DNA from: Arenibacter latericius DSM 15913
Lineage (GTDB): Bacteria; Bacteroidota; Bacteroidia; Flavobacteriales; Flavobacteriaceae
Reading direction: 5' to 3'
Assembly: GCF_000424985.1 (NCBI RefSeq)
Contig: NZ_AUKX01000043.1
Span: 1-42,544, forward strand
Length of the DNA: 42,544 nt
Position numbers and translations under genes: made by a program. This document shows positions 16,086-41,552 of the stretch, in pieces. The notes under the pieces are model-generated. The model was given only the letters and a program-made list of their open reading frames with translations. It ran no database searches and was not told the origin of the DNA. Every line of letters starts with the position of its first letter. Within the stretch, counting starts at the first letter, position 1.

Positions 16086-16097
16086 GATTCCCCAATT
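16070..16097. terminator. Perfect 28-base palindrome over the ugd stop codon
   Basis: AATTGGGGAATCTT is followed directly by its exact reverse complement. As RNA it gives a stable hairpin with a TTAA loop that contains the UAA stop (16083-16085). There is no T-run after it on the plus strand (AAAACAT follows), so it is an atypical terminator, or an attenuator or processing site between ugd and the epimerase gene. Confidence 0.5.
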
Positions 16098-16222
16098 AAA
16101 ACATATACCAGATTTTCTAGATGCTGACGGCATAGAGCCCTTCCCTTCTAATAAGAATTAATTTAGGGAAAGGTTATGCTTCTGTTTGAAAATTTTCCGA
16201 CTTTTGTTAAAAATTTCATCTT

Positions 16223-17779: not shown

Positions 17780-17793
17780 GTGCATTTCGTCGA
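17780..17793 (+). promoter_or_regulatory. GTGCATTTCGTCGA motif upstream of lipoprotein 18091
   Basis: This exact 14-mer occurs also at 21249-21262 and 32194-32207, each time upstream of a beta-helix lipoprotein gene. A TACCTTG sequence (17836-17842) lies at nearly the distance seen for the -7 element in the other copies (about 49 instead of 47 bases), but the second direct repeat is not clear here. The gene starts about 300 bases further on. Confidence 0.55.
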
Positions 17794-18090: not shown

Positions 18091-19668
18091 ATGACTTTTA
18101 GCCCCTCAAATCTCATTAAACTAACCCTTGTTAGTCTTGTCTTATGGTCTACTTTCTCCTGCAATAAGGATTCCGATATCTTAACGGATTATGTAGTAGA
18201 AAATCCAGAAGCCCTATTACCGAACGATATAGTAGCGACTTTACCTAACAGTCCTATTATAATTGATCCATTAGGTAAAGATACCGTTGAAAAACCAGAA
18301 AACGTTATCATCACCGAAGTTACCCCACCAACATTAGGTACTGCCATAGTTAATAATGACAATACCATTACCTACACCCCTGACGAGGATAAGAGCGGAA
18401 CAGATAAATTTGATTATACTGCTTCCGTTACTAACCCCGATAACTCAGTTACTACTGCCACTGGAAATGTTACTGTAAATATTGAAGAAGAGGAGGAGGA
18501 AGATGTAGTGGAAGACAAAACTCCAGAAGTTGATGATCCAAATCGGGTGAATTTCAGCAAATATGGCGCTGTAGGTGACGGTAATACAGATGACACCAAA
18601 GCTATACAAGCCGCATTGGATGCAGAAGAGTCTTTAGTAGCAGATGAAGGAGCTGTTTTTAGAATAACAGCCAGATTAGATATAGACAAATCAGGGGACC
18701 AAAACATAGATTGGAACGGATCTACTATAACCGTTACTTCAACTCTTTATCAAGCTATTGAAATAAAAAAGCCTTCAGGGAGAACAACTATGAGTGACTT
18801 AACCATTGACGGTGCAAAAAAATTAGCTGCCGGTATTTTTATAAAAACCGTGTCAGATTTTGACAACGTTGATGTTAAGTATTTATACTCCACTACACAA
18901 ACAACATGGGCATTCAGATACGAGGTGACCGATATACCCAACAGTCAAGGTGATTCTACCTTTAACGATTGTGATTGCTATGATGTTGAAAGCAAAAGTA
19001 ACGGAGTAATAGGAGATATTCCTGGACCTTCTAGATGTTTGATATTTAGATGGAAACATAGTGGATCTAGTCCTACAGTTACCTTTAACGGTGGTGTTTG
19101 GGATGGTGCGTGGGGAGATGATGGAGATATATTCCAACATGAGCAACTTGTTAGCAACATTTACAACTCAAGACTTATCTTTAACAACACGGTTATGAAG
19201 AACTTTAGCCGTAGGATTGTTAAGGGTACTGGAGGAGGTGTTACCTTTAAAAACGTGACATTTATTAGTCCTAGTAAATCAAATCCAAGGTTAGTAAGCA
19301 CTGTTCCTTCTTCTGGAATGGTTGCAATGGGGAACTTTATAAATTCTGAAGATGCTCATGGAACTATTTTTGATGGATGTACCTTTGACAACACCTTAGG
19401 ATATGATGGGCGCTTAGTAATCAACCGTCAAGATGGTATTATTGTTAAAAACTCCAACTTTATCAATGCAAGTGTAGCTTTCACAACAAGAGTTGGTGAT
19501 GTAGAAATTTGTAATAATACCTTTGATTCCAAAAGCAGCATATATGGTTATAACATTAATGATGCCACAGGATACACTGGAATGATTTCGATAGGCAATA
19601 ACAATAATGGATCAACTGGTTTTATAAGACTACCAGATGGCAAGTACAAAATGACAGACTGCCAATAA
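18091..19668 (+). CDS. Surface lipoprotein, Ig-like module plus beta-helix A (pectate-lyase-3-like)
   Basis: The 525 aa protein has a lipoprotein signal with Cys24 (TFSC) followed by NKDSD. This fits the Bacteroidota lipoprotein export signal, so it is probably exposed on the cell surface. Residues about 40-131 form an Ig-like domain (Big_9 type: NTITYTPDEDKSGTDKFDYT). An acidic linker (EEEEEED) leads into a right-handed parallel beta-helix from about 142 to the end, opening with NFSKYGAVGDGNTDDTKAIQ, the signature of the pectate_lyase_3/GH28-like superfamily. Members of that fold include lyases, hydrolases and epimerases; I cannot identify catalytic residues. The helix is about 95% identical to that of the next lipoprotein (20 differences in 384 aligned residues, counted by eye). 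The gene is monocistronic with its own terminator. A role in binding, trimming or editing the polymer made by this locus is inferred. Confidence 0.88.
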   Translation: MTFSPSNLIKLTLVSLVLWSTFSCNKDSDILTDYVVENPEALLPNDIVATLPNSPIIIDPLGKDTVEKPENVIITEVTPPTLGTAIVNNDNTITYTPDEDKSGTDKFDYTASVTNPDNSVTTATGNVTVNIEEEEEEDVVEDKTPEVDDPNRVNFSKYGAVGDGNTDDTKAIQAALDAEESLVADEGAVFRITARLDIDKSGDQNIDWNGSTITVTSTLYQAIEIKKPSGRTTMSDLTIDGAKKLAAGIFIKTVSDFDNVDVKYLYSTTQTTWAFRYEVTDIPNSQGDSTFNDCDCYDVESKSNGVIGDIPGPSRCLIFRWKHSGSSPTVTFNGGVWDGAWGDDGDIFQHEQLVSNIYNSRLIFNNTVMKNFSRRIVKGTGGGVTFKNVTFISPSKSNPRLVSTVPSSGMVAMGNFINSEDAHGTIFDGCTFDNTLGYDGRLVINRQDGIIVKNSNFINASVAFTTRVGDVEICNNTFDSKSSIYGYNINDATGYTGMISIGNNNNGSTGFIRLPDGKYKMTDCQ

Positions 19669-19739
19669 GAATCATAGTACATCCTTTACAAAATTTGTTA
19701 AGAACAAAAAGGTCGTCTAAAAAAATTAGACGACCTTTT
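18511..19739 (+). repeat. Duplicated unit, copy 1: beta-helix A plus terminator
   Basis: From the DKTPEVDD seam through the stop codon (1158 bases), and again at the terminator, the DNA matches 22087-23313 closely. Upstream of the seam the two genes encode unrelated domains. This marks a module-sized duplication or gene conversion. Confidence 0.8.
19707..19739 (+). terminator. Intrinsic terminator of lipoprotein 18091
   Basis: AAAAGGTCGTCTAA pairs perfectly with TTAGACGACCTTTT across a five-A loop, and T-rich sequence follows. The same hairpin follows the duplicate gene. Confidence 0.85.
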
Positions 19740-21233
19740 AATTTTCATAACTTTACTAATGTGAGCATCCCCATTCTGTAGGCACCAGTCATAACTTAAG
19801 AATTTTAGCTACTTGGATTCATTTCTATGTATTCTTCTGGAGTTATAATTACAAGGGAACTATGCAGTTTAAAGTAGTTATAGTCCACCCTCCAAACATC
19901 GATCTTTTATTACGTATCAGCCAAGGAAAAGAACCAATTGAATTCAAGGTTCCGTCCCTAAGAGACGCCAGAATATTTATTTAAAAGGGTTGTCGGTAGG
20001 TTTTCCTGGTCCTGATAAGATAAGCTTAGTACTATTTTTTTAGGCCCATTTGTATAATATTATGCTGATCACCTCACTTCTGTTTTCGACTTTAATACAC
20101 TTTCTTAGCTAGTCCTTCTAGAAAATAGCCGCTTATATGAACTAAAAGACATCTCTTGCCATAAGAGATGTCTCCATATGGACAGACAAACGTATACAAA
20201 TACGGCTAAATACTTAAGATTAAAACTATTGCATGTATATTTTAGTTGCAAAAAAAGATCTACACCATACCATTGGCCAAACCAGAACTGTTCCCGTCGG
20301 CAGGTTGTATTTATAGAGCAGAACAATTCACTTATAGACATTTGCCCTTGAAGTACAACTATTCCTCGGAAAAGACTCAATAAATCCACTTATGGTTATT
20401 CATAAAGTTCTCCTTCTTAGAAAAATAATTAATCGTCAAAATTCATATCGTCTCATTTTGGCGGCGATTTATTGTTGTTCCCTTTCACGTAATAACAAAA
20501 AAATGATCTTCTACAACTCATAAAGCATGCAGCAATACTAAATAGAAATGTTTTAACCTATCCTAATATTATCGATGATGCAGGTTTTTATGGTTGATAT
20601 AAAAACTTAGTTTAAGTACATCTTTTAGAATTTGCTAATCAATGCTTAGACCTGCAAACAATTTATTAAGTTGCAAATTCTCCCCCTCCAAATTCGTAAA
20701 TCTTCAAAGATCCGAAACACCTAGGCCTCCTGATTTCTAATTATAAGATCTACTCTCCCTGAAACCCATCTTGCGACAGACTTCTAAGTTAACTGTTTCC
20801 ATATCAACTTTTTTGATCGCAAATATGATTTGCAATTACGAATAATTCGAATGTTTGATAAGCATACAATCTTTTTATTTTTAAAATTTATTCGCTTAGA
20901 ATACTCTGAGTTATCTTCTTTAATGGGTGAATGTCAAATAAGTTTTATCCTAAAGATGGGGTTAATACTAGGCCTAAATATTTTAATTTATTTAAAATTT
21001 AGACCTTCCCTTTTCTAAAAGATCACCGTTTATTTTTCAATTTTTAATGTGAAAAAGTAAAAATAAACAGCTAATAAAAGCCTCCACAACTCACTTTTCA
21101 AAAACTTTACGTAAACACAAAACAAACATAACACGTAAACACCTACAAATCAAACAAGTAAAAGACACAAAGAAAGAAGTTTCTTGTTATAATATTGCCA
21201 AAAAATACTGAAAAACCTTAAACTTTCGTGTCG
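19740..21233. other. Gene-poor stretch of about 1.5 kb, possibly decayed sequence
   Basis: Both strands have only short open frames (for example 94 codons at 20105-20389 on the minus strand and 62 codons at 20830-21018 on the plus strand). None has recognisable domains, and the first is interrupted by a terminator-like hairpin. I see no RNA gene or insertion sequence ends that I can name. It may be remnant DNA from past rearrangement between the duplicated lipoprotein genes. Confidence 0.5.
20144..20172 (-). terminator. Orphan hairpin with T4 tail on the minus strand
   Basis: GACATCTCTT and AAGAGATGTC form a perfect 10-bp stem around a five-base loop. On the minus strand the stem is followed by TTTTAG, as in a short intrinsic terminator. 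No minus-strand gene is evident upstream, so it could end a small RNA or be a remnant. Confidence 0.35.
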
Positions 21234-21290
21234 TTCATCGAATGAAGTGTGCATTTCGTCGATGTTATGATTTTTTAAAATATCATTGCA
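21234..21290 (+). promoter_or_regulatory. Direct-repeat regulatory site and -7-like element of lipoprotein 21481
   Basis: TTCATCGA (21234-21241) and TTCGTCGA (21255-21262) are repeated with a 21-base period. A -7-like TATCATTGCA (21281-21290) starts 26 bases after the start of the second repeat. The second repeat is part of the 14-mer GTGCATTTCGTCGA. Period and position resemble direct-repeat sites of LytTR-type activators, but that is an inference; no regulator gene is in the window. The 5' leader would be about 190 bases. Confidence 0.6.
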
Positions 21291-21480
21291 CCTCGAAAAT
21301 AAAACAACCCTGAAGAGCAAATTATTTACTACTAATGAATATCAATTTTCAATGTTTTAGTCATGATTTTCTTAAGGGTAAAATAGTTGCTTATAACTGC
21401 TTTTATTCTTGAGAAATAAACACAATAAAATAGAGTGCAAATTCAATTATTAATTAATCAATTCAACAATTTTTCTTACT

Positions 21481-23244
21481 ATGAAATTTAATTTCCCCTC
21501 CCCCTTTAATGCAGCCTTAAGCTGTATCGTTCTTTTCTTATTTTTTTCCTGTAGTAATGATCTAGTAGATGAAACCGAAGATCTAAACGCAATTGAGTAT
21601 CAGGCCAAAACATCGCAGACGGTAACTCTAACACCTATAAATGATGCTTTTTTACAAGGTAGCAGAAGCTACAACACCTCAATTATACGTTTAGAAGAAT
21701 CAAAGCGTACAGGTTACCTAATGTTCGACCTAAGTAAAATTGAAGGAGAAATCACCTCAGCTAACCTAGAGTTTACTATAAGTTCTGATCCTGGTTATGG
21801 TACCATAGAGGCACATCTTGGAAATGGTTCAAATTGGACGGAAACCAACCTTTCCTCCAACAACAAGCCAAACCCTACCACTTTTTTAGGTAGTATTAAC
21901 AAAACGTACAAATTAGGGAGTACAGAAAAAATATCCCTAAAAGCAGAGTCGTTTAGTGCTGACAAAACAACACTTATTCTCTTCCACAAAAATGGAAACG
22001 ATTTGGCTTTTGCCTCCAGCAAGACCTCATCAGCCCCTAAGCTAACGGTTACATATATAAATTCTGCCTCCGAAAATATTACAGAGGAAGATAAAACTCC
22101 AGAAGTTGATGATTCAAATCGAGTAAATTTCAGCAAATATGGCGCTATAGGTGACGGTAAAGCAGATGACACCAAAGCCTTACAAGCAGCTTTGGATTCA
22201 GAAGAGTCTTTAGTAGCGGATCAAGGTGCTGTTTTTAGAATAACAGGCAGGCTAGATATAGACAAATCAGGAGACCAAAACATAGATTGGAACGGATCTA
22301 CTATAACAGTTACTTCAACACTTTATCAAGCTATTGAAATAAAAAAGCCATCAGGGAGAACAACTATGAGTGACTTAACCATTGACGGTGCTAAAAAATT
22401 GGCTGCCGGTATTTTTATAAAAACCGTGTCAGATTTTGACAACGTTGATGTTAAGTATTTATACTCCACTACACAAACAACATGGGCATTCAGGTACGAG
22501 GTGACCGATATCCCCAACAGTCAAGGTGATTCTACCTTTAACGATTGTGATTGCTATGATGTTGAAAGTAAAAGCAATGGCGTAATAGGAGATACTCCTG
22601 GACCTTCTAGATGTTTGATATTTAGATGGAAGCATAGTGGGTCTAGTCCTACAGTTACCTTTAACGGTGGTGTTTGGGATGGTGCATGGGGAGATGATGG
22701 AGATATATTCCAACATGAGCAACTTGTTAGCAACATTTACAACTCAAGACTTATCTTTAACAACACGGTTATGAAGAACTTTAGCCGTAGGATTGTTAAG
22801 GGTACTGGCGGTGGTGTTACCTTTAAAAACGTGACTTTTATAAGTCCTAGTAAATCTAATCCAAGGCTAATAAGTTCTGTCCCATCTTCTGGGATGGTTG
22901 CAATGGGGAACTTTATAAATTCTGAAGATGCCCATGGAACTATTTTCGATGGATGTACCTTTGACAACTCCTTAGGATATGATGGGCGCTTAGTAATTAA
23001 TCGTCAAGATGGTATTATTGTTAAAAACTCCAACTTTATCAATGCTAGTGTAGCATTCACAACAAGAGTTGGTGATGTAGAAATTTGTAATAATACCTTT
23101 AATTCCAAAAGTAGTATATACGGTTATAACATTAATAATGCTACGGGTTACACTGGAATGATTTCGATAGGTAAAAACAATAATGGATCATCTGGTTTTA
23201 TAAAACTACCAGATAGCAAGTACCAAATGATAGATTGCCAATAG
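21481..23244 (+). CDS. Surface lipoprotein, CBM96/DNRLRE-like module plus beta-helix A
   Basis: The 587 aa lipoprotein has lipid Cys24 (LFLFFSC) followed by SNDLVDETED, an acidic stretch that fits surface export. Residues about 44-192 form a DNRLRE/CBM96-like beta-sandwich (IIRLEESKRTGYLMFDLSKI, then ANLEFTIS); family knowledge links CBM96 to uronate-containing glycans such as alginate. After the seam EEDKTPEVDD (about 202-211) comes beta-helix A, nearly identical to that of the lipoprotein at 18091. The N-terminal module is instead shared with the lipoprotein at 29438. The gene has its own regulated promoter and terminator, so it appears to be transcribed alone. Ligand and catalysis are unknown; glycan binding is likely, lyase or epimerase activity possible. 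Confidence 0.88.
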   Translation: MKFNFPSPFNAALSCIVLFLFFSCSNDLVDETEDLNAIEYQAKTSQTVTLTPINDAFLQGSRSYNTSIIRLEESKRTGYLMFDLSKIEGEITSANLEFTISSDPGYGTIEAHLGNGSNWTETNLSSNNKPNPTTFLGSINKTYKLGSTEKISLKAESFSADKTTLILFHKNGNDLAFASSKTSSAPKLTVTYINSASENITEEDKTPEVDDSNRVNFSKYGAIGDGKADDTKALQAALDSEESLVADQGAVFRITGRLDIDKSGDQNIDWNGSTITVTSTLYQAIEIKKPSGRTTMSDLTIDGAKKLAAGIFIKTVSDFDNVDVKYLYSTTQTTWAFRYEVTDIPNSQGDSTFNDCDCYDVESKSNGVIGDTPGPSRCLIFRWKHSGSSPTVTFNGGVWDGAWGDDGDIFQHEQLVSNIYNSRLIFNNTVMKNFSRRIVKGTGGGVTFKNVTFISPSKSNPRLISSVPSSGMVAMGNFINSEDAHGTIFDGCTFDNSLGYDGRLVINRQDGIIVKNSNFINASVAFTTRVGDVEICNNTFNSKSSIYGYNINNATGYTGMISIGKNNNGSSGFIKLPDSKYQMIDCQ

Positions 23245-23313
23245 AAAACATAGAACATTCTTAGTTAAATTTGTAAAAATAAAGGTCGTCTAAAGATAAT
23301 TAGACGGCCTTTT
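22087..23313 (+). repeat. Duplicated unit, copy 2: beta-helix A plus terminator
   Basis: Second copy of the unit at 18511-19739. Both coding parts are 1158 bases long with no indel. Long runs are identical at DNA level, for example around 22440-22550 versus 18860-18970, so the duplication or last conversion event is fairly recent. Confidence 0.8.
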
Positions 23314-23870
23314 ACATTTTATATTTTCTTAACCTTAATTATTTAGTTACTCTCCAAAAATTATGATCCTTTCCCGGTATTATTTTTTTATATTTTCCTC
23401 CAAGTAATACCATTTATAGCTTTCTAATTCTCTAATATCTTGCCAAATCATTATTCCGTTTTAAGATAGCTTATTCAAGAGGTAATACATCCAACACCTT
23501 TTTTAATTTACATTACCTTATTGTCGACATCTCCAATAAGAAATGGGCATATATTCTTCAACTAATAAATAGTTGGATTTTAAATTATGATATCAAATTG
23601 ATCCTAACAAGCAAAAATCAATATTAATCTTCTTTTAAACCCTTCTAGATTACATAACCTTTACATCTATAAAAAATAATTTATATATTATATTAATCTA
23701 GAAGTGATATCGCCAACTTTTTATAAACAGAGTAAGGACAACCTCTAGAGAAGGATTTAATCGAGAAAAAGATGCTTTTCAACTTTTCTTCCCCTATATG
23801 TTATACCTTTTCTAATAATAACATCTTACTTTATATATACCTAAATAAAAATTAAAAAATATCAGCACTT
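23245..23870 (+). other. Intergenic region before the first assembly operon
   Basis: The 626-base AT-rich stretch contains the terminator at 23281-23313 and no credible gene. I found no perfect TTG-N17-TAnnTTTG promoter for the following wzx gene; TATACCTTTT near 23805 is a weak candidate. The TTCRTCGA repeat is absent. Confidence 0.5.
23281..23313 (+). terminator. Intrinsic terminator of lipoprotein 21481
   Basis: AAAGGTCGTCTAA pairs with TTAGACGGCCTTT (one G-U pair) around AGATAA. It is a close copy of the hairpin after the gene at 18091. Confidence 0.85.
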
Positions 23871-25175
23871 ATGTTGAGCATTCAAGAATTAAAAGTACGT
23901 CTAATAAGAAGTAAACTAGTAAATGATTCTTTTTGGGCAATTTTCGGGAATGTTATTGGGAAGGGACTGTCATTATTATCTGCCATAATCATAGCTAGAA
24001 TTTTAGGCAAGGATGTATATGGTGAGTTTGGAATCATTACAAGTACAATAGGTACTATATTAATTTTTTCAAACTTTGGTCTAAACTATACTTCCACAAA
24101 ATATATTGCAGAACATCAAATAGCTAAACCAGAATTACTTACTAAGATTATAAAAGCCTGCCAGAATTTAACTCTGATTTTCAGCGGAATATCGACAATT
24201 ACATTGTTTTTTTCAGCAGATTATGTTGCCGTTAGCCTACTTAATTCTCCAAAATTATCTTTTCCCCTGAGATTAGTAGCTATTAGCATACTCATAGGAT
24301 CTGTTTGCAGAACCCAAGAAGGTATTCTAGCGGGCTTCGGTAAATTTAAGGAATTGGCAAAAGTTAATACTGTAATCGGATTTGCCACATTTATTTTTGG
24401 GATAATACTAACATATTTTTACAAGCTTAATGGAGCCCTAATTGCATTAATTTTAATAAAAGCACTATATTTTGCCCTTCTAAGATACTATATATCTAGA
24501 TCCACTCCATCCGTGCCAACGCATCCAACTAATAAAATACCTTTAAAGGAAATTCTACAATTTTCCACCCCAATTGCATTACAGGAAGCATTTTACTCTA
24601 TTATCACCTATGCAACCGGATTATTATTAGTCCAATTATCTACGTATGGAGAAGTAGGGTTAAGTTCTGCTGCTGTTTATTGGAGTGCTTTAATATTATA
24701 TATACCCGGAATCTTAAGAAACGTAATTTTATCCCATCTCTCGGCAAATTTAAATAATAATAAGGCTCGTCTGAGAATATTAAGATTAATACTATTGTTT
24801 AATTTTGGCGTAACTTTACTTCTCTCATTAACAATATTCTTTCTCTCCGATTATATTGCTGCTACTTATGGAAATAACTTTTCTGGTTTAAGAGATGTTA
24901 TTAATATAGCCGTTTTCACAACTATTTTTACGAGTATGAGTAATGTTTACGCTCAAGCTTATATGTCAGAAAACAAAAACTGGCTTATGTTATTTTTCAG
25001 AATTATTAGGGACGGTTTAATATTCATAATTACATATACTTTATTAAAAGAAAACAATGGAGTTAACGGCGCATTATCCTTGGCTAAAAGTGCGCTATGG
25101 GCTAATATTCTGTTCTTACTATTAATGGGGCTTGTTTATGAATTAAAACTTAAAAATAAAACCAAAATATCATGA
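23871..25175 (+). CDS. wzx: Wzx-type polysaccharide flippase (first assembly operon)
   Basis: Integral membrane protein of 434 residues with about 12-14 hydrophobic helices spread over the whole length. It belongs to the oligosaccharide flippase part of the MOP superfamily (DSFWAIFGNVIGKGLSLLSA at the N-terminus, then ARILGKDVYGEFGI, about residues 42-55, a typical Wzx signature). It would move the lipid-linked repeat unit across the inner membrane. Its stop overlaps the start of the next gene by four bases (ATGA), so it is translationally coupled to the presumed polymerase. It is the first gene of a four-gene unit. A second, clearly different flippase gene lies at 34388. Confidence 0.92.
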   Translation: MLSIQELKVRLIRSKLVNDSFWAIFGNVIGKGLSLLSAIIIARILGKDVYGEFGIITSTIGTILIFSNFGLNYTSTKYIAEHQIAKPELLTKIIKACQNLTLIFSGISTITLFFSADYVAVSLLNSPKLSFPLRLVAISILIGSVCRTQEGILAGFGKFKELAKVNTVIGFATFIFGIILTYFYKLNGALIALILIKALYFALLRYYISRSTPSVPTHPTNKIPLKEILQFSTPIALQEAFYSIITYATGLLLVQLSTYGEVGLSSAAVYWSALILYIPGILRNVILSHLSANLNNNKARLRILRLILLFNFGVTLLLSLTIFFLSDYIAATYGNNFSGLRDVINIAVFTTIFTSMSNVYAQAYMSENKNWLMLFFRIIRDGLIFIITYTLLKENNGVNGALSLAKSALWANILFLLLMGLVYELKLKNKTKIS

Positions 25176-26344
25176 AGAAGCTTGTTTTCATAATTTCCTT
25201 TTTCTCCTATAGCGGTTATTATGCTGGACTAGCAATATTGTTCTCCCTAGGTTTAGGTGGAATGTCGAGGTTTTATTCTATACCATTAAGACTATTTCTT
25301 TTATTTGCGATGATCTATTTGATTAAAAATAATATTGACAATATTAAATTTAACAAATACTCTAAGATTATCCCACTATTTATTATATTTTGGTGCTATT
25401 ATTTTATAAAAATTCTCTACACTGAAAATATAGATTTAGACTTTACTCTTGGAAGGACTTGGCCAGAATATATTTTCTACTCATTGTCTTTTGTAATATT
25501 TCCTTTTATAACATTCACATTTTTATCTTTGGATAAGTTTCGGAAAGCAATTGTTAATGGGTTTATCATTTCTGGATTTGTTCTAGGAGTAATAGGAGTT
25601 TATTTATATGGTTCTTTACTAACTTCAGGAATTGGACGAATTAACCTTATAACTTATCAAACTGGGGAAGCTGTACTTAATCCTCTTTCTTTATCCTATT
25701 CTGGTGCACTAACCATTGTATTATGCATTTATAAATTAGTCATAGTAGGGAATCTAAAGAAGGCTGAAAAAATATTTTTAATAATAACAATTGGTTTGTC
25801 TTTTGCTCTATTTTTATTAGGTTCGTCAAGAGGTTCGATAGTAGCATTAGCCTTTACCTTACCTTTATTTATAGCTCATTCTCCAAGTGCTACTAAATTA
25901 AAATTAATTTTAATCTCGGTTATTTTAACTCCATTTATAATATGGGCAATCACTGCAAGTGGTAGTAACATATTTGACAGAGTATCCAATACCTCGAAAG
26001 ATGGTGGCGGTGGTAGAGACTACTTGTGGACAAATGCCTTATCACATTTTTTAGAATCTCCCATTTTTGGGGGTAGAATTGAGATTGGAGGTATCTATCC
26101 ACACAATTTAATAATAGAAATCCTTATGGCCACTGGAATAATTGGATCTCTAATTATACTCCCTATAATATTCAAAGGATTTATAATTGGATTCAGAAGA
26201 GTAAAAGAAAATAAGGAAAATATGTTTTTAGTTCTAATTCTAATTCAGGGATTCACACAACATTTTTTTTCAGGTAGCTTCGCCACAGCCACTTTAGTAT
26301 TCTTACCTTTAGGTATGGCATATAGCTCATATAGTAATCAATAA
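25172..26344 (+). CDS. wzy: Wzy-like O-antigen/polysaccharide polymerase (first assembly operon)
   Basis: Polytopic membrane protein of 390 residues, with about ten hydrophobic segments and a larger loop in the C-terminal half. The motif GGGGRDYLWTNAL...PHNLIIEILMATGIIG is typical of Wzy_C/O-antigen ligase family proteins, where the loop arginine and histidine serve polymerisation. Predicted to join repeat units in the periplasm. WaaL-type ligases share this architecture, but the position beside a flippase in a locus with Wza and Wzc favours a polymerase. Sequence conservation in this family is too low for me to predict linkage. Confidence 0.85.
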   Translation: MKKLVFIISFFSYSGYYAGLAILFSLGLGGMSRFYSIPLRLFLLFAMIYLIKNNIDNIKFNKYSKIIPLFIIFWCYYFIKILYTENIDLDFTLGRTWPEYIFYSLSFVIFPFITFTFLSLDKFRKAIVNGFIISGFVLGVIGVYLYGSLLTSGIGRINLITYQTGEAVLNPLSLSYSGALTIVLCIYKLVIVGNLKKAEKIFLIITIGLSFALFLLGSSRGSIVALAFTLPLFIAHSPSATKLKLILISVILTPFIIWAITASGSNIFDRVSNTSKDGGGGRDYLWTNALSHFLESPIFGGRIEIGGIYPHNLIIEILMATGIIGSLIILPIIFKGFIIGFRRVKENKENMFLVLILIQGFTQHFFSGSFATATLVFLPLGMAYSSYSNQ

Positions 26345-26375
26345 CCTTATTAAGCTTTAACCTTAAATCTCATTA

Positions 26376-27533
26376 ATGAAAAATATTTATATTATTACAA
26401 ATATAGCTTCACATTATAGGTCTTCATTATGGGAAAAGTTATTGAACAATAGAAAATATAATTTTAATTTTTTTTTCGGAAAAGACTTGGTGTTTGGAAT
26501 TAAAGAAATAAATTTTAATGATAAAAACATCAAATTTCGTCAGAGCCAAATCCATAAATTAACAAACGTTTATTTTAAAGATAAAATAATTATTTGGCAA
26601 AAAGGCATAATAAAAAAGTGTTTAACATCACAAGTAGATACTGCTATAATTCTTGGAGATTCATGGATTATTTCAAATTGGATTATTGCCATAATCTTAA
26701 GATTAAAAGGAGTGAAAGTGATATTTTGGAGTCATGGTATATATGGTAATGAACCTAAAATAAAAAAATGGATTAGAATATTGTTTTACAAACTAGCACA
26801 TGAACATTTGCTGTATGAGAGAAGAGGTAAACGACAAATGGTAATAAATGGATTTAAAGAATGTAAGTTACACGTCATCTTCAACTCCCTTAATTATGAG
26901 GCAAATCTAATGTATCGAAAGGCAGCCGAGAAGTTTTCAAAAACTGAAATTTACCCATTTTTTCCTACCCCAGAACTACCAACAATAATTTTTATTGGAA
27001 GACTAACAGAAGTTAAAAAATTAAATTATTTGATAGAGGCCGTTAACCAATTAAATATTCAAAAATACTTGGTAAATTTATTAATAATTGGGGAAGGTGG
27101 TCAACGGAAAAAATTAATAGGATTAGCGAAAGAGTACGGCATTGATAATCAATGTCATTTTTACGGTCCCTGTTATTCTGAGAAAATTTTATCAAGTTTA
27201 ATATCTACAGCTGATTTATGTGTTAGTCCCGGAAATGTAGGTCTAACGGGTATTCATAGTATGAGCTATGGCACCCCTGTTTTAACTCATAACAATTTTA
27301 TAAATCAAATGCCTGAAGTGGAAGCAATAATAGAAGGGAAAAATGGGTGTTTCTTTTCAGAAAATGATATATCCTCCATGGTTTCACAACTTATAAATTG
27401 GTTATTCTATAACAAACTGACTAGAGATGAAATAAGAAGTAACTGCTATAATATTATTGATAATTATTACAATCCTAATTATCAAGTAAAAGTAATTGAA
27501 AATATAATAGAGGATAAACAGCCATTTTTATAA
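26376..27533 (+). CDS. Glycosyltransferase, GT4-like
   Basis: The 385 aa GT-B-fold enzyme is presumed to add a sugar to the lipid-linked repeat unit at the cytoplasmic face. The N-terminal acceptor domain has HYRSSLWEKL, typical of this subgroup. The C-terminal donor domain has IIFIGRLTEVKKLNYLIEA (about 205-223), LLIIGEGGQRKKL and PGNVGLTGIHSMSYGTPV. In the last segment the first Glu of the usual E-x7-E motif is not present, which is seen in a known subset of GT4 enzymes. It lies 31 bases after wzy and 11 bases before the next transferase. Donor and acceptor sugars cannot be inferred. Confidence 0.88.
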   Translation: MKNIYIITNIASHYRSSLWEKLLNNRKYNFNFFFGKDLVFGIKEINFNDKNIKFRQSQIHKLTNVYFKDKIIIWQKGIIKKCLTSQVDTAIILGDSWIISNWIIAIILRLKGVKVIFWSHGIYGNEPKIKKWIRILFYKLAHEHLLYERRGKRQMVINGFKECKLHVIFNSLNYEANLMYRKAAEKFSKTEIYPFFPTPELPTIIFIGRLTEVKKLNYLIEAVNQLNIQKYLVNLLIIGEGGQRKKLIGLAKEYGIDNQCHFYGPCYSEKILSSLISTADLCVSPGNVGLTGIHSMSYGTPVLTHNNFINQMPEVEAIIEGKNGCFFSENDISSMVSQLINWLFYNKLTRDEIRSNCYNIIDNYYNPNYQVKVIENIIEDKQPFL

Positions 27534-27544
27534 AGCCAACATAA

Positions 27545-28783
27545 ATGATAAAATTACTACAAATTAATTCGGTGGTAAATACAGGATCTACAGGGAGAAT
27601 AGCTGAAGATATTGGTGAATATGTTATGTCCATGGGTTGGGAAAGCTATATAGCATATGGTAGATATGGTAATAAAAGTAATTCTAAACTAATTAGATTT
27701 GGCTCAAAATGTAGTAATTATAATCATGTATTGCTAACAAGGCTTTTTGATAAACATGGCTTTGGCTCTAAATCTGCAACTCAAAACTTAATTCAAAAAA
27801 TTGAGACTATAAATCCTGACATCATCCACCTTCATAACCTTCATGGCTACTACATAAATTTACAGGTTCTATTTAACTATCTGTCTACAAAAACCACCCC
27901 TGTAATTTGGACATTACATGACTGCTGGTCTTTTACAGGGCACTGTGTTCATTTCGAAAATATTCAATGTCTTAAATGGCAGGTATTATGTACTAAATGT
28001 CCACAAAAAAAATCGTATCCTAAATCCTTGTTATATGATAATTCTAATATAAATTATCTAATGAAAAAGGAATTATTTAATTCGGTGAAAAATTTAACTA
28101 TAGTTCCTGTCTCATATTGGCTACAAAATTTAGTGGAAAAATCATTTCTGAATAAAAAGAACATAAAAACCATACACAACGGAGTCGACACCAAGATATT
28201 TAATAATATTAAAAGTAAATCAGTTATTGACCTCTATAACCTTCAAGATAAATTTATTATTCTTGGGGTAGCTAATATATGGGGTAATGGGAAAGGATTA
28301 AATGATTTTATTAAACTCAGCAATTACACCAATAAGGACGAAATAATTGTTTTAATAGGCTTAAATAATAATCAAATAAAAAGTTTGCCTGATAATATTT
28401 TGGGAATCAAACAAACAGAAAGTGTGAGTGAGCTTTGTGATTTTTATTGTGCAGCAGATGTTTTTGTCAACCCCACTTATCAGGATAGTTTTGGCTTGGT
28501 CAATATTGAATCCCTTTCTTGCGGAACGCCAGTTATAACTTACCAAACAGGAGGAAGTCCAGAAACAATATCTGATGAAACTGGTATTGTTGTTGAGCAA
28601 GGAAATATTAAGGGCTTATTAAATGCAATAAGGCATATTAAGGATTTAACCAAAGAACACTATAGCGATGCTTGTATTCAAAGGGCACAAAAAGTGTTTG
28701 ATAAAAATTTAAAATATAAAGAGTACTTTGATCTATACAACGACTTGTTAAAAACAGTTGCAGAGGATAATACCCCAAACTAA
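27545..28783 (+). CDS. Glycosyltransferase, GT4-like (WcaC-related)
   Basis: The 412 aa GT-B enzyme has an N-terminus INSVVNTGSTGRIAEDIG (with the G-S-T-G-R loop), then HLHNLHGYYIN, WTLHDCWSFTGHCVHF and a Cys-rich segment (CLKWQVLCTKCP, about 145-156). These are typical of a group that includes the colanic acid transferase WcaC. The C-terminal donor site has NPTYQDSFGLVNIESLSCGTP, with Asp in place of the first Glu of E-x7-E. It is the last gene of the first assembly operon. The cysteines may form a structural metal site, as the spacing in relatives suggests. Sugar specificity is unknown. Confidence 0.88.
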   Translation: MIKLLQINSVVNTGSTGRIAEDIGEYVMSMGWESYIAYGRYGNKSNSKLIRFGSKCSNYNHVLLTRLFDKHGFGSKSATQNLIQKIETINPDIIHLHNLHGYYINLQVLFNYLSTKTTPVIWTLHDCWSFTGHCVHFENIQCLKWQVLCTKCPQKKSYPKSLLYDNSNINYLMKKELFNSVKNLTIVPVSYWLQNLVEKSFLNKKNIKTIHNGVDTKIFNNIKSKSVIDLYNLQDKFIILGVANIWGNGKGLNDFIKLSNYTNKDEIIVLIGLNNNQIKSLPDNILGIKQTESVSELCDFYCAADVFVNPTYQDSFGLVNIESLSCGTPVITYQTGGSPETISDETGIVVEQGNIKGLLNAIRHIKDLTKEHYSDACIQRAQKVFDKNLKYKEYFDLYNDLLKTVAEDNTPN

Positions 28784-29437
28784 AATCAAATTTAAAGAAC
28801 CTCCCTAGCTAATATTAAACCCTAATAATGCAAATCCAATTAATTACGGGGGATTTACCTTGCGTTTCTATTCTTAAAAAAGGCAAAACTAATAGCCATG
28901 TAATCTTAAAATTGTTTTCCTTAATCTTATCAAAAAATAATCAGACTTCTCCTCATCTATTCTATACAACAACATTTCTGCGTCTTCTTCTTATTGATTC
29001 CTGAAGAACTTTCTTAACCCTTTGCTAAATGGTAATAAAGCTCACTATTGATGAAGCTTCTACTATTTTTAAGTTCCAGGGATAACAAAAAATTAAGTAA
29101 AAACCTACATATAAACAAGATAAATATTACTGTATAAGATTTTTCTTGTTATTGAATTATTAAATAAAAACAACAAAACCTAAAGTTTAGGGTATTTCAT
29201 CGAAACAAAACCATATTTAATCGATGTAACTGGATTTTAAAATATCATTGCAACCCAAATTATAATAATCCCCTACCAACATTAAACTTGTATGCGGAAA
29301 TATATTTTCCAGAGTGACTTCTATGGTTTTAAGTCCTTAAAACGATCCACTTATGTAGATCCTAGTTATAACTAAAACAGAACAATTCAAATTCATAATA
29401 TATTCGTTAACTATTTTTTACTTCAAATTGCCTTACT
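28784..29437 (+). other. Intergenic region before the third beta-helix lipoprotein
   Basis: The 654-base AT-rich stretch has no credible gene and no clear terminator for the glycosyltransferase operon. The second half holds the regulatory site at 29196-29252. A block from CTTGTTAT (about 29143) to the -7 element resembles the region before the gene at 21481. Confidence 0.5.
29196..29252 (+). promoter_or_regulatory. Direct-repeat regulatory site and -7-like element of lipoprotein 29438
   Basis: TTCATCGA (29196-29203) and TTAATCGA (29217-29224) have a 21-base period. TATCATTGCA (29243-29252) starts 26 bases after the start of the second repeat, exactly as at 21234-21290. The run TTTTAAAATATCATTGCA is identical in both promoters. 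Confidence 0.6.
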
Positions 29438-31375
29438 ATGAAATTTCAAAATCACCCCTTAAGAGCTGCATTAAGCTGTATTTTCCTTTTCCTATTTTTT
29501 TCTTGTAGCAATGACTTACTAGATGAAACGGACAGTCTACAAGCTATACAATATCAAGCAAAGACCTCCCAAACCACCACATTAACTCCAATACAAGACG
29601 TTTATTTGCAAGGCAGTAGTAGGTATAACTCTTCTATAATTCGTCTAGAAGAAAATAACCGCACTGGCTACCTAATGTTCGATCTTAGTAAAATTGAAGG
29701 AGAAATCACCTCGGCCAACTTGGAATTTACTATTAGTTCGGACCCAGGTTATGGTACTATCGAAGTCTATCTGGGTAATACAACAGATTGGACAGAATCT
29801 AATCTTACCAGTCAAAATAAGCCTAATCCTGATGTTTTTTTAGGGAGCATTAATAAATCCTATCCTTTAGGAAGCAAAGAAAAGATCTCTCTAAAAGTAG
29901 AGTCGATTGACACTAAAAAAACATCCCTTATTCTTAAACATAAAAATGGGAACGACTTAGCATTATCCTCTAGAACTACATCTTCATCTCCAAAATTAAC
30001 CGTTACTTATAGCAGCTCATCAACTACTGCACCTGAAGCAAGTAAACCAGCTGCGCCTGTTGTCAAAGGGTACTATGTAACCGTAAATGGAAAAGCTACT
30101 AACAACGGATTATCCGAAAGCAACGCCTGGAGCTTAGAGCATGCATTTAAAGTAGCGAAAGCTGGAGATGTTGTTTACGTTAAGGCAGGGAATTATGGTT
30201 CTCTAAATTTAAGAGTGAATGGAAATGGAACCGCGAGTAACCCTATTAAGTTTATTGGTTATACTAGAACCCCAGGAGACCTAACAAGCAACCAAGGATC
30301 TACTTTTAAAAAGGGTGATAAGTTAAACCCTTTTGAAATGCCAATGATAAAAGGCTACTCTACAACCTCAGGCATTGGCTTAGATACAAGAGCGAGAAAC
30401 TATATTCATATCATTAACTTTCAGATTACCGATTATAAAATTGGTGTATTATCTACAGGCCATAATGCTTTGTTTAAAAATGTTATTGTAGCTAACAACG
30501 GAGAACAAAATCATAATAGAATCCAAGGTGGGAGAGGTTTCCAAATTTATGGCGACTATAACGTAATTGAAGATTGTGTTTCACTAAATTCTAATGGAGA
30601 AGGTATTAATCTTAAAGGAAGTAAAAATTCTAAGGTACTATATACCAGTGTATATTCATTAAACCAACTTAACCCTACCGGATATTACATAGCAGTAACT
30701 CACGGAGGCACTGAGAACATCATAGAAAACTGTGTTGTATACAGAGACATAAACGCAGATTTACATCAAGGACATGGATATGTTTTAAAAGATCTGGCTA
30801 CCAATAATATTATCCGAAATTCTGTTGCTCACAATACTGGTATAGAAGTTAACTTTTCAGGTGTTCATTCTAATACTTTCGAAAACATGAGTATCTATGG
30901 TAATTTTTCAACTAAAAGGAATCAATATACTTCATGTATAAGAATTGCAAATGGTGCACATGATAACACCTTTAGGAATATCAAAATTACCGATTCTAGG
31001 TATGCCATAAACTTTATAGACTATAATGATGGTTATGTAGGACCAGGTGGAGATAGAGATCAACAAGCTGGAGGTCATAATAATAAATTCATAAATTTGA
31101 CAGTTGATAAGGCTCAAAACATTATAGGTGCTACGTCAACTGTAGTTGGAGCAAAAGCAACTGTTAATAACAACTCGTTTACTAACTGTACGTTTAAGAA
31201 TATTACGGGCTCTCCCATATTTACCTATATGACTATGAATAACACAAAATTTAGCAACTGTGTTTTTCAAAATATTCCTAATAGGAATTTAATTGTTACT
31301 TATAAAGGAGGTAGGTTTAATTCATCATCATTTCTTTCCTCCACTTATTTAAATGTGGGATTCTCTCCCAAATAA
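29438..31375 (+). CDS. Surface lipoprotein, CBM96/DNRLRE-like module plus beta-helix B
   Basis: The 645 aa lipoprotein has lipid Cys23 (LFLFFSC) followed by SNDLLDETD. Residues about 42-191 are a DNRLRE/CBM96-like domain very similar to that of the protein at 21481 (shared TGYLMFDLSKIEGEITSAN). A Ser/Thr/Pro/Ala linker (192-210) leads into a right-handed beta-helix of a different type from 211: YYVTVNGKATNNGLSESNAW, then AGDVVYVKAGNYG, then many parallel-helix turns. Conserved blocks are LHQGHGYVLKD, TGIEVNFSGVHSNTFEN and DYNDGYVGPGGDRD. The opening resembles PL6/PL9-like and other parallel beta-helix polysaccharide enzymes, but I cannot assign a family. Conserved His, Asp and Glu residues in those blocks are candidates for an active site or metal site. 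Transcribed alone. Confidence 0.88.
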   Translation: MKFQNHPLRAALSCIFLFLFFSCSNDLLDETDSLQAIQYQAKTSQTTTLTPIQDVYLQGSSRYNSSIIRLEENNRTGYLMFDLSKIEGEITSANLEFTISSDPGYGTIEVYLGNTTDWTESNLTSQNKPNPDVFLGSINKSYPLGSKEKISLKVESIDTKKTSLILKHKNGNDLALSSRTTSSSPKLTVTYSSSSTTAPEASKPAAPVVKGYYVTVNGKATNNGLSESNAWSLEHAFKVAKAGDVVYVKAGNYGSLNLRVNGNGTASNPIKFIGYTRTPGDLTSNQGSTFKKGDKLNPFEMPMIKGYSTTSGIGLDTRARNYIHIINFQITDYKIGVLSTGHNALFKNVIVANNGEQNHNRIQGGRGFQIYGDYNVIEDCVSLNSNGEGINLKGSKNSKVLYTSVYSLNQLNPTGYYIAVTHGGTENIIENCVVYRDINADLHQGHGYVLKDLATNNIIRNSVAHNTGIEVNFSGVHSNTFENMSIYGNFSTKRNQYTSCIRIANGAHDNTFRNIKITDSRYAINFIDYNDGYVGPGGDRDQQAGGHNNKFINLTVDKAQNIIGATSTVVGAKATVNNNSFTNCTFKNITGSPIFTYMTMNNTKFSNCVFQNIPNRNLIVTYKGGRFNSSSFLSSTYLNVGFSPK

Positions 31376-32193
31376 GTTTAAGATTTAATTAAATTGTACT
31401 GATTTTCGGTATTTCTGCCTTATACATGCCCAATTTTACCGGTAAATAAGTAGGCGGAATACCGAAAAACTCAGTTTGTATCAATATCACGACTGAAATA
31501 TGCATATGAAAATTTTTATTTTTTAATAGGGATTTTGATAGCGGAAAATTACCTGTAAGCCAAGTCTTGTTAGAACATTCCGAAATCTTATTAAATATTT
31601 TATCAATAAAGCTTCTGCCCTATTAAACTTCATAATAAAAGCATCTGGCCCTTTATTTTTAGGTTTACAGACTTATAATTTTGATTTTTACCAATCCTAA
31701 TTAAGGTGATGTCTTACTCTTCACCTTCTAGCTTTTTCAACCTATTTATTAATTATTACATTATTCTATTTTCTGCTTAATAGGATGCCTTTACAAGTGG
31801 TAGTGTCATTGGTTATTGAAGACTATTATAATTGTCCAAAAAGGCCATGAAATTTAGAGTTTATATTTAGAATAAGTATACGACATATATCTTATATATT
31901 ATACTCCTAGGCTTGTTAAGGATAAAGTGACTCCTAAAACCTAGCAATAAAATGTGTATTACCTCTACCTTAATTATATAAGGATCAAAAATTGTATTTC
32001 TACCTTTTAATTTATACGAATCCTCTAACGCACTTAGGTATTATGTAAAAGCTATGGAAACCTATCTGCAAATCTTATGTATGTTAAAGGCAATGTTTAA
32101 TTCTATCTTTATAATAATTCTTATCATCTATTTTGTCAATTCTCTTAAATGTTGAAGCAATATAACTCCATATACCATTCTAAGTGTCAATTT
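31376..32193 (+). other. Intergenic region between the two helix-B lipoprotein genes
   Basis: AT-rich, with only a terminator near its start and no credible gene on either strand. The regulatory site of the next gene begins at 32194. Confidence 0.5.
31403..31468 (+). terminator. Large hairpin after lipoprotein 29438
   Basis: TTTTCGGTATT (31403-31413) pairs with AATACCGAAAA (31458-31468). The loop contains the 12-base palindrome TTTACCGGTAAA (31435-31446), giving a two-level structure 28 bases after the stop. The T-run after it is poor, so efficiency is uncertain. Confidence 0.55.
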
Positions 32194-32256
32194 GTGCATT
32201 TCGTCGAAAAAATTGGCATTTCATCAGATAATTTATAAAAAACAGATAATATTGCA
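32194..32256 (+). promoter_or_regulatory. Direct-repeat regulatory site and -7-like element of lipoprotein 32299
   Basis: The 14-mer GTGCATTTCGTCGA (32194-32207) is followed by GGCATTTCATCAG (32215-32227), a direct repeat with a 20-base period. TAATATTGCA (32247-32256) starts 47 bases after the start of the first TTCGTCGA core, the same distance as in the promoters at 21234 and 29196. The leader to the start codon is only about 40 bases. Confidence 0.6.
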
Positions 32257-32298
32257 CCGATTTAAACGTTATAGAATTTCCCAAAATCTTAATTACTT

Positions 32299-34050
32299 AT
32301 GACCCGTCACCCCCACCTACTTACAAAACTAGTCCTATTTAGTTTTGTTATACTCTTAGGTTATTCCTGTAACAAGGATTCCGATCTCTTAGCAGAATAT
32401 GTCGTGAATGACACAGATTCTCTAGTTCCTAATGATGTTGTAGTAACATTACTAAACAGCCCTATAGTAATAAACCCTCTAAGCAAGGCATCTATTAAAG
32501 ATCCTAAAAGTATACTTATAACCCATGTCACCCCACCAAAAATGGGTACCGCTATAGTTAATAGCGACAACACTATAACCTATACACCGGATGAAAACAA
32601 AAGCGGTACAGACGCTTTTGATTACTCAGCTACCGTTACAAAACCAGATAAGACCGTCTCAACTGAAACCGGTAATATTACAGTGAACGTTGCTGAAGCA
32701 GACAAAACCCCCACTCCTACTGAAACTGATACTGAGGCTAATATTTATTATGTTACCACCGAAGGTAAAAACTCTAATTCCGGAACCACAGAAGAAGATG
32801 GATGGAGTATTCAACATGCTTTTTCCACAGCACAAGCCGGTGATATAATTTATATAAAAGCTGGTAATTACGGAGCCTTAACCCTATCAGCATCTAATTC
32901 AGGAACAGCCGATAAACCTATAAAATTTATAGGATATACTACAAAGCCCAAGGATCTTGTAAGCAATGAAGGATCATCGTTTAAATATGGTGATAAAATA
33001 GATTCTAGTAAAATGCCACTCATTAAAGGAAAATCCTTTTTATCGGGTACAGGGCTAGATCTTAGACAAAGTCATATAGTAATCGAAAACCTTCAAATCT
33101 CAGATTATCTAATAGGTGTTAATACCAGAGGAAAACATACGGTTTTAAAAAACGTAATTGTAGCTAATAATGGTGAACAAAGAAATAACTCTGTTCAAGG
33201 TGGTAGAGGGTTTCACATTTACGGAGATTACACCACTATAAAGAATAGTTTTTCTTTAAATTCTAATGGAGAAGGCATTAATATTAAAGGTGCCAACCAT
33301 TGTATAATTTCTCACACGCAAGTTTATTCAGTTAATATAGCCAACCCTGGTGGGTATTATATTGCTATAACTCATGGAGGAAGCAATAATATTATTGATA
33401 ATTGTACTGTATATCGAGATAAGGATGCTAACCTACATCAAGGACATGGTTACGTATTAAAAGACATGGCAACCAACAATATCATAAGAAACTCAAAAGC
33501 GTATAATACAGGTATTGAAGTTAATTTTTCGGGAGTACATTCAAATACTTTTGAAAACATTAATATTTATGGAAATTTCTCTACCAACAAACTTCAATTT
33601 TCATCATGTATCAGAATAATCAATGGTGCTCATGATAATGTGTTTAAGGATATCTATATTGAGGATACACGTTATGCCTTTAACTTTCATGATTTTAACG
33701 ATGGTTATGTGGGGCCTGACGGAGATAGGGATGAATTAGCTGGTGGACATAATAATAAGTTCATTAATATAGAGGTTAACAAAGGTCAAAACATAATTGG
33801 TGCTACTTCACCAGTAGTAGGAACAAAAGCAACTTCTAAGAACAATACTTTTGTTGATTGTACTTTTAGAAATATTACCGGTTCTCCTATATTCAGCTAT
33901 ATGAATATGACTAATACAACTTTTACTGACTGCATATTCGAAAATATACCTAATACATCATTAATAGTCAGTTATAAAGGCGGAATATTTACTGCAAATT
34001 TTGAATCACCAACATTCAAAAATGTTAATTTCCCTGACCCCACAAAATAA
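32299..34050 (+). CDS. Surface lipoprotein, Ig-like module plus beta-helix B
   Basis: The 583 aa lipoprotein has lipid Cys24 (GYSC) followed by NKDSD, as in the protein at 18091. Residues about 42-131 are the same Ig-like module (NTITYTPDENKSGTDAFDYS), roughly 60% identical to that of 18091. After the seam ADKTPTPTETD comes beta-helix B (about 149-583), homologous to that of 29438 and conserved in the blocks LHQGHGYVLKD, TGIEVNFSGVHSNTFEN, FNDGYVGPDGDRD and AGGHNNKFIN. The two B helices have diverged far more than the two A helices. The gene is monocistronic and ends about 200 bases before a strong terminator. Probable surface glycan-binding or glycan-processing protein. Confidence 0.88.
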   Translation: MTRHPHLLTKLVLFSFVILLGYSCNKDSDLLAEYVVNDTDSLVPNDVVVTLLNSPIVINPLSKASIKDPKSILITHVTPPKMGTAIVNSDNTITYTPDENKSGTDAFDYSATVTKPDKTVSTETGNITVNVAEADKTPTPTETDTEANIYYVTTEGKNSNSGTTEEDGWSIQHAFSTAQAGDIIYIKAGNYGALTLSASNSGTADKPIKFIGYTTKPKDLVSNEGSSFKYGDKIDSSKMPLIKGKSFLSGTGLDLRQSHIVIENLQISDYLIGVNTRGKHTVLKNVIVANNGEQRNNSVQGGRGFHIYGDYTTIKNSFSLNSNGEGINIKGANHCIISHTQVYSVNIANPGGYYIAITHGGSNNIIDNCTVYRDKDANLHQGHGYVLKDMATNNIIRNSKAYNTGIEVNFSGVHSNTFENINIYGNFSTNKLQFSSCIRIINGAHDNVFKDIYIEDTRYAFNFHDFNDGYVGPDGDRDELAGGHNNKFINIEVNKGQNIIGATSPVVGTKATSKNNTFVDCTFRNITGSPIFSYMNMTNTTFTDCIFENIPNTSLIVSYKGGIFTANFESPTFKNVNFPDPTK

Positions 34051-37086: not shown

Positions 37087-37207
37087 TAGAATGGAAGTCT
37101 ATTTTATTACTTCTATATAGGATAATCTAGCTTAATGAACTCGCTCTAGCACTATTACAATGCAAACCTAAAATCTCATTAGTTCGTTAAAGACTAATCA
37201 ATATAGA

Positions 37208-41548: not shown

Positions 41549-41552
41549 ATTT

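Follow-up and report, generated by a model that had tools for sequence, protein, structure and literature searches.

Introduction

Beta-helix enzymes of exopolysaccharide clusters are known as single proteins, such as WceF and RbmB, which according to the accessible portions of their reports act on the polymer of their own cell (PMC7949094, PMC11637428). WceF from Pantoea stewartii, as far as that partial text goes, binds and clumps its own polymer and cuts it slowly (PMC7949094). Here we describe, in a stretch of 42,544 nucleotides (nt) from Arenibacter latericius DSM 15913 (contig NZ_AUKX01000043.1; the whole stretch is referred to as the window), four lipoproteins (P1 to P4) in which two helices, A and B, are each carried on two N-terminal modules, one immunoglobulin-like (Ig) and one CBM96. 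New with respect to the known proteins are the presence of one helix on two anchors, its exchange as a cassette, the likeness kept within each pair and its going with the polymerase. The modules were homologous, the split between anchors was old, the helices of a pair changed in concert, helix type was linked to the Wzy type of polymerase and a motif upstream was common to these genes. Our preferred reading, to which we give a probability of roughly 60%, is that the locus makes two exopolysaccharides and that the paired lipoproteins are a polymer-matched beta-helix on two anchors, surface proteins that would cut or bind their own polymer.

Module composition of the four lipoproteins

The lipoproteins and their modules were located as follows.

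18091..19668, plus strand: P1, lipoprotein with Ig module and helix A, 525 amino acids (open reading frame list; Big_9)
18223..18480, plus strand: Ig (Big_9) module of P1, residues 45-130 (Pfam, 42.5 bits, cut-off 23.6)
18547..19665, plus strand: helix A of P1, residue 153 onward; DNA identity to helix A of P2 about 94% (94.0-94.1)
21481..23244, plus strand: P2, lipoprotein with CBM96 module and helix A, 587 amino acids (open reading frame list; CBM96)
21622..22053, plus strand: CBM96 module of P2, residues 48-191 (Pfam, 38.3 bits, cut-off 26)
22083..23320, plus strand: tract of P2 common with P1 (18507-19745), with linker, helix A and about 77 nt beyond the stop codon (92.8%, 1241 columns)
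29438..31375, plus strand: P3, lipoprotein with CBM96 module and helix B, 645 amino acids (open reading frame list; CBM96)
29651..30007, plus strand: CBM96 match of P3, residues 72-190 (Pfam, 38.6 bits, cut-off 26)
30071..31372, plus strand: helix B of P3, residue 212 onward (homology to P4)
32299..34050, plus strand: P4, lipoprotein with Ig module and helix B, 583 amino acids (open reading frame list; Big_9, Beta_helix)
32431..32688, plus strand: Ig (Big_9) module of P4, residues 45-130 (Pfam, 35.4 bits, cut-off 23.6)
32746..34047, plus strand: helix B of P4, residue 150 onward (Beta_helix, 35.6 bits; structure model)

A preliminary description of this DNA had read the four genes as a full two-by-two set of modules, and both the reading frames and the modules were found where it had placed them, Big_9 scoring above the Pfam cut-off in P1 and P4 and CBM96 in P2 and P3. 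Of the helix profiles it had named, Pectate_lyase_3 (PF12708) remained under its cut-off of 27 for helix A (23.0 and 18.5 bits), and the beta-helix profile PF13229 (cut-off 25.9 bits) recognised helix B in P4 (35.6 bits) and not in P3 (22.2 bits).

When the six pairings of the proteins were compared by blastp, amino acid identity was 90% for helix A (P1/P2), 75% for CBM96 (P2/P3), 58% for Ig (P1/P4) and 59% for helix B (P3/P4), and no match was obtained for P1/P3 and P2/P4 at an E value of 1e-3. Only the four expected module matches were therefore present, indicating that the common parts are homologous modules. Convergent linkers or unrelated N-terminal modules, which the preliminary description had named as the other possible source of the likeness, were not what we found: entire modules aligned. 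At the DNA level the tract common to P1 and P2 stood apart from the other shared parts of the window (92.8% vs. about 69-72%), and the likeness of these two genes continued beyond the stop codon at 78% identity.

The sequence DKTP at the seam was present, as had been noted, in P1, P2 and P4 and not in P3. Across the genus, 14 of 18 single-Ig proteins had DKTP or a near variant behind the Ig module (exact DKTP in eight), and the occurrence of DKTP in P2, a CBM96 protein, suggests that this gene probably received its linker and helix A from an Ig gene with helix A. No more copies of the modules were detected in the rest of the own genome at an E value of 1e-3, apart from one weak Ig-type match of 27% on another contig. 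Six-frame translation of seven intergenic gaps gave no match (E value 0.01) to the reading frames gathered in this study, so that no pseudogenes related to those frames were seen there, though remnants of unrelated genes may be present. At gathering scores, no Rfam family matched the window.

Concerted change of helices within pairs

An Ig-type match was found in all 18 Arenibacter genomes surveyed (numbered with G), in lipoproteins with a helix of type A, B or C, and locus maps placed the Ig-type gene beside at least one core gene of the locus in 17 of them; no Wzc, Wza or CapD homologue was seen in the stretch of G009. Helix A occurred in G000, G002, G007, G012 and G017, helix B in G000, G001, G005, G007 and G013, and helix C in the remaining ten genomes, only its start being visible in G011 and G016. 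At least one pair of genes was present in eight of the 18 genomes (G000, G003, G004, G006, G007, G009, G012, and G015); in G008, G011 and G016 a contig end falls within the gene. In six of the pairs (G003, G004, G006, G009, G012, and G015) the same helix was carried by one single-Ig and one double-Ig protein. A. certesii DSM 19833 (G007) had complete genes for Ig with helix A, Ig with helix B and CBM96 with helix B. Two of its contigs begin inside helix A; Wzx1 follows on one of them and the Ig gene with helix B on the other. The assembly is thus compatible with either two or three helix A genes and leaves the missing N-terminal side outside its contigs; the Wzy2 cluster of this genome lies on a separate contig. 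The end of the contig with both helix B genes (L013:7061-7180) looked mobile-element-like by eye, which would explain the break.

DNA identity of the helices within pairs reached 99.9% in G009, 99.3% in G006, 98.8% in G012, about 94% for helix A of the window and 90.1% in G015, and was lower in G003 (82.9%, a mosaic), G004 (77.9%), helix B of the window (72.5%) and helix B of G007 (71.6%). In G009 the near-identity went on past the helix, at 98.6% over 73 nt on the upstream side and at 100% over at least 275 nt on the downstream side. Towards the 5' side of the seam, identity dropped to about 60% or below over at most 180 nt; the fall was abrupt in G009, G012 and helix A of the window and gradual in G006 and G015. 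Compared with the first row of the alignment, helix A of other genomes had a protein identity of 31-51% (88% for A. certesii) and helix C one of 27-50%; closer helices between genomes were those of G010/G014 (96%) and G005/G013 (84%).

Helix trees, built without G011 and G016 (contig ends) and without the pair of A. certesii copies truncated inside helix A by a contig start, and after excising an assembly gap from G012_12875, placed the members of eight out of nine pairs as sisters. This grouping was starred for G003, G004, G006, G015 and helix B of the window and had support values of 94/93 for helix A of the window and 77/77 for G012, the two helices of G009 being identical. The tree of Ig modules separated single-Ig (18 rows) from double-Ig (8 rows) at 100/99, that is, by type and not by genome, and the helix label needed six changes on the single-Ig tree, which was weakly supported (3 of 15 branches starred). 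The clearest case was that of G012, whose genes both carry helix A, yet whose double-Ig anchor matches at 71% the one in G015, where the genes carry helix C. Anchor types are thus old, whereas helices have been exchanged between genes and kept alike within pairs, with an edge near the linker.

Helices of P1 and P2 were closer to each other (about 94%) than to those of A. certesii (83.5 and 81.6%), five flanking genes displaying 81.5-85.4%, and the two helix A copies of A. certesii were 100% identical over 1116 nt. Homogenisation therefore occurred separately in the two species. The module swapping by recombination suggested in the preliminary description was supported: the survey of relatives that it had proposed revealed recurrent recombination of modules beside wzx/wzy genes, visible in anchors split by type, sister helices, identity rising at or near the seam and a helix type that goes with Wzy type in the genus and, for helix B and Wzy2, in the family.

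Outside the genus, the 22 helix A or B genes mapped comprised six with CBM96, eight with Ig and eight with neither. Among the four pairs found there, G228 presented the same pattern (helix 85%, differing N-terminal parts) and G395 a pair alike along the whole gene (52%).

Two polymer clusters and the link between helix and polymerase type

The lipoprotein genes lie among genes for polymer synthesis and export.

8139..17251, mixed strands: core common to both clusters (Pfam, NCBIfam)
23871..28783, plus strand: first polymer cluster, with Wzx1, Wzy1 and two glycosyltransferases (Pfam)
34388..42242, plus strand: second polymer cluster, with Wzx2, a CoA-ligase-like protein, two hexapeptide transferases, glycosyltransferases and Wzy2 (Pfam, NCBIfam)

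On the minus strand the core encodes a Wzz/AAA (Wzc-like) protein, a Poly_export (Wza-like) protein, a CapD-like protein and a DegT-type aminotransferase (Pfam). The plus strand continues with a nucleotide sugar dehydrogenase (TIGR03026 above cut-off), which points to a uronate in the polymer, an epimerase (no NCBIfam equivalog at cut-off), the helix A pair, the Wzx1/Wzy1 cluster, the helix B pair and the cluster from Wzx2 to Wzy2. The polymer-synthesis setting given in the preliminary description stood, with the correction that its single polysaccharide locus contains Wzx-like and Wzy-like genes in duplicate (23871/25172 and 34388/39153). With one helix pair for each cluster, the two-by-two set reads as two polymers by two anchors. 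Wzy1 scored above the cut-off of Wzy_C and not of TIGR04370. A terminator-like inverted repeat of 33 nt (3-nt loop, 79% complementary) lies 3' of P4 at 34235-34303. Within the second cluster, a PaaK-like gene of CoA ligase type (35713-37086) had all its NCBIfam matches under cut-off, and none was seen in the corresponding part of the A. certesii cluster.

In the genus, where Wzy1 was sought in the retrieved stretches (up to about 40 kb each) and Wzy2 in whole genomes, the Wzy1 family appeared in exactly the five genomes with helix A (hypergeometric probability 1.2e-4, kinship uncontrolled). Wzy2 was present in four of 18 genomes (G000, G005, G007, and G013), all with helix B; helix A was thus accompanied by Wzy1 in 5/5 genomes and helix B by Wzy2 in 4/5. 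The family sample contained 397 genomes, 396 besides the own one and at least two of these (G003 and G015) from the genus. Among the 396, Wzy1 was found in four, helix A in three, helix B in 21 and Wzy2 in 15; helix B and Wzy2 occurred together in ten, always on one contig and 1.6 to 16.4 kb apart (P = 4e-11, kinship uncontrolled). Helix type and Wzy type were therefore statistically linked in the genus and, for helix B and Wzy2, in the family. The detailed maps cover 16 of the 21 helix B genomes, leaving out G136, G218, G320, G330 and G385, as well as second, weaker matches in G043, G146, G208, G247 and G269.

Wzy2 without helix B was found in five genomes. At the same position G245 (L104:6155-8197) and G199 (L105:9689-11791) have a large lipoprotein, the two being alike by eye, and G239 (L107:10501-11985) has another one; the C-terminal parts of these three had no match in Pfam and none of note in the PDB. 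In G119 a CBM96 lipoprotein lies about 12 kb from Wzy2, and in G167 Wzy2 is in two pieces.

These patterns might also arise neutrally, if similar helices in tandem converted by chance and the helix followed Wzy through co-transfer of the locus, with no matching to a polymer needed. Linkage alone drags neighbours, the genus sample consists of 18 related genomes with P values that do not control for kinship, and outside the genus Wzy1 occurs with either helix. We nevertheless hold this explanation to be improbable, since the helix and the anchor of one gene change separately and helix B goes with Wzy2 across genera (10 of the 15 Wzy2 genomes).

A common motif upstream of the lipoprotein genes

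About 200 nt 5' of the start codon were conserved across the genus, with the motif TT[CT][AG]TCGA inside, frequently around -176 and -98. In the window it was located at the following positions.

17786..17793, plus strand: motif upstream of P1 (-305)
21234..21262, plus strand: two motifs upstream of P2 (-247 and -226; starts 21234 and 21255, 21 nt apart)
29196..29203, plus strand: motif upstream of P3 (-242)
32200..32207, plus strand: motif upstream of P4 (-99)

Counting genes with at least 300 nt upstream and motifs within 350 nt, the motif preceded 29 of 29 lipoprotein genes in the genus vs. 22 of 438 other reading frames, one of the latter duplicating a lipoprotein gene already counted and six being sugar dehydrogenases of the same loci. 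This contrast is biased, as the motif was read off the genus sequences themselves; the count in other genera is independent and gave 21 of 26 lipoprotein genes vs. 19 of 365 other frames, two of the 19 being unlisted lipoproteins of this kind (G199 and G119). Genes with CBM96 have the motif too, although their N-terminal modules are unrelated to Ig. A strict extended form matched twice genome-wide, upstream of P3 and P4, vs. three matches for the reversed control, a count not above chance. We consider TT[CT][AG]TCGA a candidate regulatory site for lipoproteins of exopolysaccharide loci. The 21-nt spacing in P2 and G003_12214 presumably resembles that of LytTR sites, for which a literature search found nothing direct. 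The same 8-mer occurs at 7309 (plus) and 7368 (minus), between a malectin/Kelch-like protein (2-7231, minus strand) and the Wzc-like gene, so that the former may share this control.

The genomic setting bears on whether the proteins are ordinary degradative lipoproteins for algal polymers that stand in this locus by chance. Relatives in the polysaccharide lyase (PL) families PL6 and PL9, of PL1 type and in CBM96 are mostly degradative, and CBM96 was founded on an alginate binder according to the accessible text (PMC9971899). Such enzymes for foreign polysaccharides are very improbable here, given that the mapped loci place these genes among polymer-synthesis genes in genome after genome and that the motif is common to the six sugar dehydrogenase genes of the same loci.

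Lipid anchor and nature of the helices

As previously noted, the signal peptide ends at a cysteine in all four proteins, with acidic residues behind it. The export signal of surface lipoproteins in Bacteroidetes is given as C-X-K-(D/E)2-X after the lipid cysteine in the part of the source available (PMC5080379). P1 and P4 have C-N-K-D-S-D and P2 and P3 have C-S-N-D-L, sequences that are acidic without being the exact published signal. At least 33 of 56 such proteins carry C-x-K-D-x-D, near that signal and not identical to it, behind the signal peptide, a floor because the regular expression missed 13 of the 56 rows and misplaced one. As a DNA pattern, C-x-K-D-x-D-[LIVMF]-[LIVMF] matched three times in the own genome: in P1, in P4 and once antisense within a helicase gene.

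Helix C was pectate-lyase-like, matching the pectate lyase 9buj at 3e-56 and VexL at 1e-22; we take 9buj to belong to PL1 and assume the role usually given to VexL. Helix B presented weak profile matches to PL9 and PL6 entries. The structure prediction that had been proposed gave a model of P4 (six sequences), with a mean predicted local distance difference test (pLDDT) of 73.9, and Foldseek aligned this model with PL6/PL9 entries at E values of about 1e-6 to 1e-5, template modeling scores by target of up to 0.63 and 12-15% identity. Among the 39 PDB matches with E values up to 0.001, alginate, PL6 and PL9 lyases came first, and a glycoside hydrolase family 28 enzyme, a C5-epimerase and others stood lower. 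Numbered by the first row of each alignment, invariant charged residues were D29, D30, K89, D171, D206, R236, R237 and K240 in helix A (nine sequences), K47, D79, R233, H240, H243, K248 and E267 in helix B (14 sequences), and in helix C (seven sequences) included R18, R99, D132, D141 and R187. These residues favour catalysis by the helices and do not prove it.

The same proteins could instead be non-catalytic receptors, in which a lyase-like fold only binds the own polymer and holds it as a surface capsule, with Ig or CBM96 setting the distance or adding a sugar contact. A lipid anchor and CBM96 suit retention of a polymer, helix A has no clear enzyme match, and the slow cutting and clumping by WceF, in the part of its report cited above, fits as well (PMC7949094). 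This alternative is unlikely in our opinion, though it is the strongest of those considered: helix C is clearly pectate-lyase-like, and invariant charged residues are kept in all three helix types.

Discussion

According to our preferred reading, two Wzx/Wzy sets behind one export core would yield two exopolysaccharides, each cluster having two outer-membrane lipoproteins with one polymer-matched helix on either an Ig spacer or a CBM96 sugar-binding module. The polymer would leave through the Wza-like channel and meet the lipoproteins at the surface, where the helix may cut, trim or hold the exported own polymer, probably bearing uronate; most likely it is a lyase-like enzyme for trimming or remodelling, and the two anchors would bring one activity into two settings. 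A matching helix would enter when the polymer of a lineage changes, and gene conversion would spread it to the partner gene.

Several observations weigh against this reading. Seven of the 18 genomes have one gene and no pair (G001, G002, G005, G010, G013, G014, and G017). The helix B pair of G007 were not sisters (82/87 against sisterhood), nor were the members of the pairs in G286 and G146, outside the genus, each other's closest relatives. G001 carries helix B without Wzy2 in a whole-genome search, and the name of Wzy2 comes from sub-threshold matches (Wzy_C 28.9 vs. 31.7 bits; TIGR04370 17.7 vs. 40). Outside the genus all four Wzy1 loci had a nearby helix, of type A in G357 and of type B in G043, G228 and G392; a strict one-to-one tie between helix A and Wzy1, true in the genus, is thus broken in the family, where three of four Wzy1 genes stand by helix B. 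The export signal of P2 and P3 appears to be a partial match. Helix B reached the cut-off of no curated PL6, PL9 or other lyase profile (PF22842, 13.9 vs. 25.2 bits), Beta_helix alone passing, and helix A had only a cap motif in common with beta-glucanase, polygalacturonase and C5-epimerase entries. The AlphaFold model of P2 had a mean pLDDT of 42.1, and for this reason no fold is claimed for helix A.

A wider proposal, which we put forward tentatively and regard as possible though rather doubtful, is that these genes are family-wide cassettes for recognition of the own polymer: old anchor genes of Flavobacteriaceae with a common cis-element and a swappable, polymer-matched reader or enzyme domain, exchanged along with the polymer genes and subject to gene conversion between partner anchors. 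If so, self-specificity would evolve through the matching of helix to polymer, and the type of polymer could be predicted from the helix sequence. Provided that helix and polymer are matched, helix sequence would report the type of polymer in marine Bacteroidota and these genes could supply polymer-specific lyases or binders; the evolution of capsule specificity would then be open to testing with the near-identical tracts and the natural domain swaps.

Comparison with known systems

The paired, anchored and cassette-like form was not found described in the literature searched (titles and starts of abstracts, with subscription papers thinly covered). The window genes are encoded inside a polymer-synthesis cluster, as are proteins of the WceF and RbmB kind. 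WceF is a right-handed beta-helix protein from an exopolysaccharide cluster and acts on its own polymer, as the window proteins may do, with a beta-helix predicted for helix B; unlike them, in the accessible text it is a trimer with a twin-arginine signal, no lipoprotein and the product of a single gene, and that text reports no paired anchors or helix exchange (PMC7949094). RbmB of Vibrio cholerae is encoded in the biofilm gene cluster, has a predicted beta-helix and is a lyase on its own polymer; the part of its report available describes it as secreted, single and without anchor modules (PMC11637428).

VexL (PDB 6fi2), a PL1-like beta-helix, matched helix C of sister genomes and not helices A or B of the window. 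We take it to be the Vi capsule lyase, encoded with the capsule genes and periplasmic. The PL6/PL9 lyases 6qps, 7o84, 1ru4 and 5olr, the last placed in its family on our assumption, were among the top fold matches of the P4 model, with the 12-15% identity given above. Finally, the N-terminal modules of P2 and P3 matched the alginate-binding CBM96 (PF24517, PDB 7vbo) at 2e-4 and 5e-5, respectively; unlike that protein, the module stands here on a putative surface lipoprotein in a polymer-synthesis locus.

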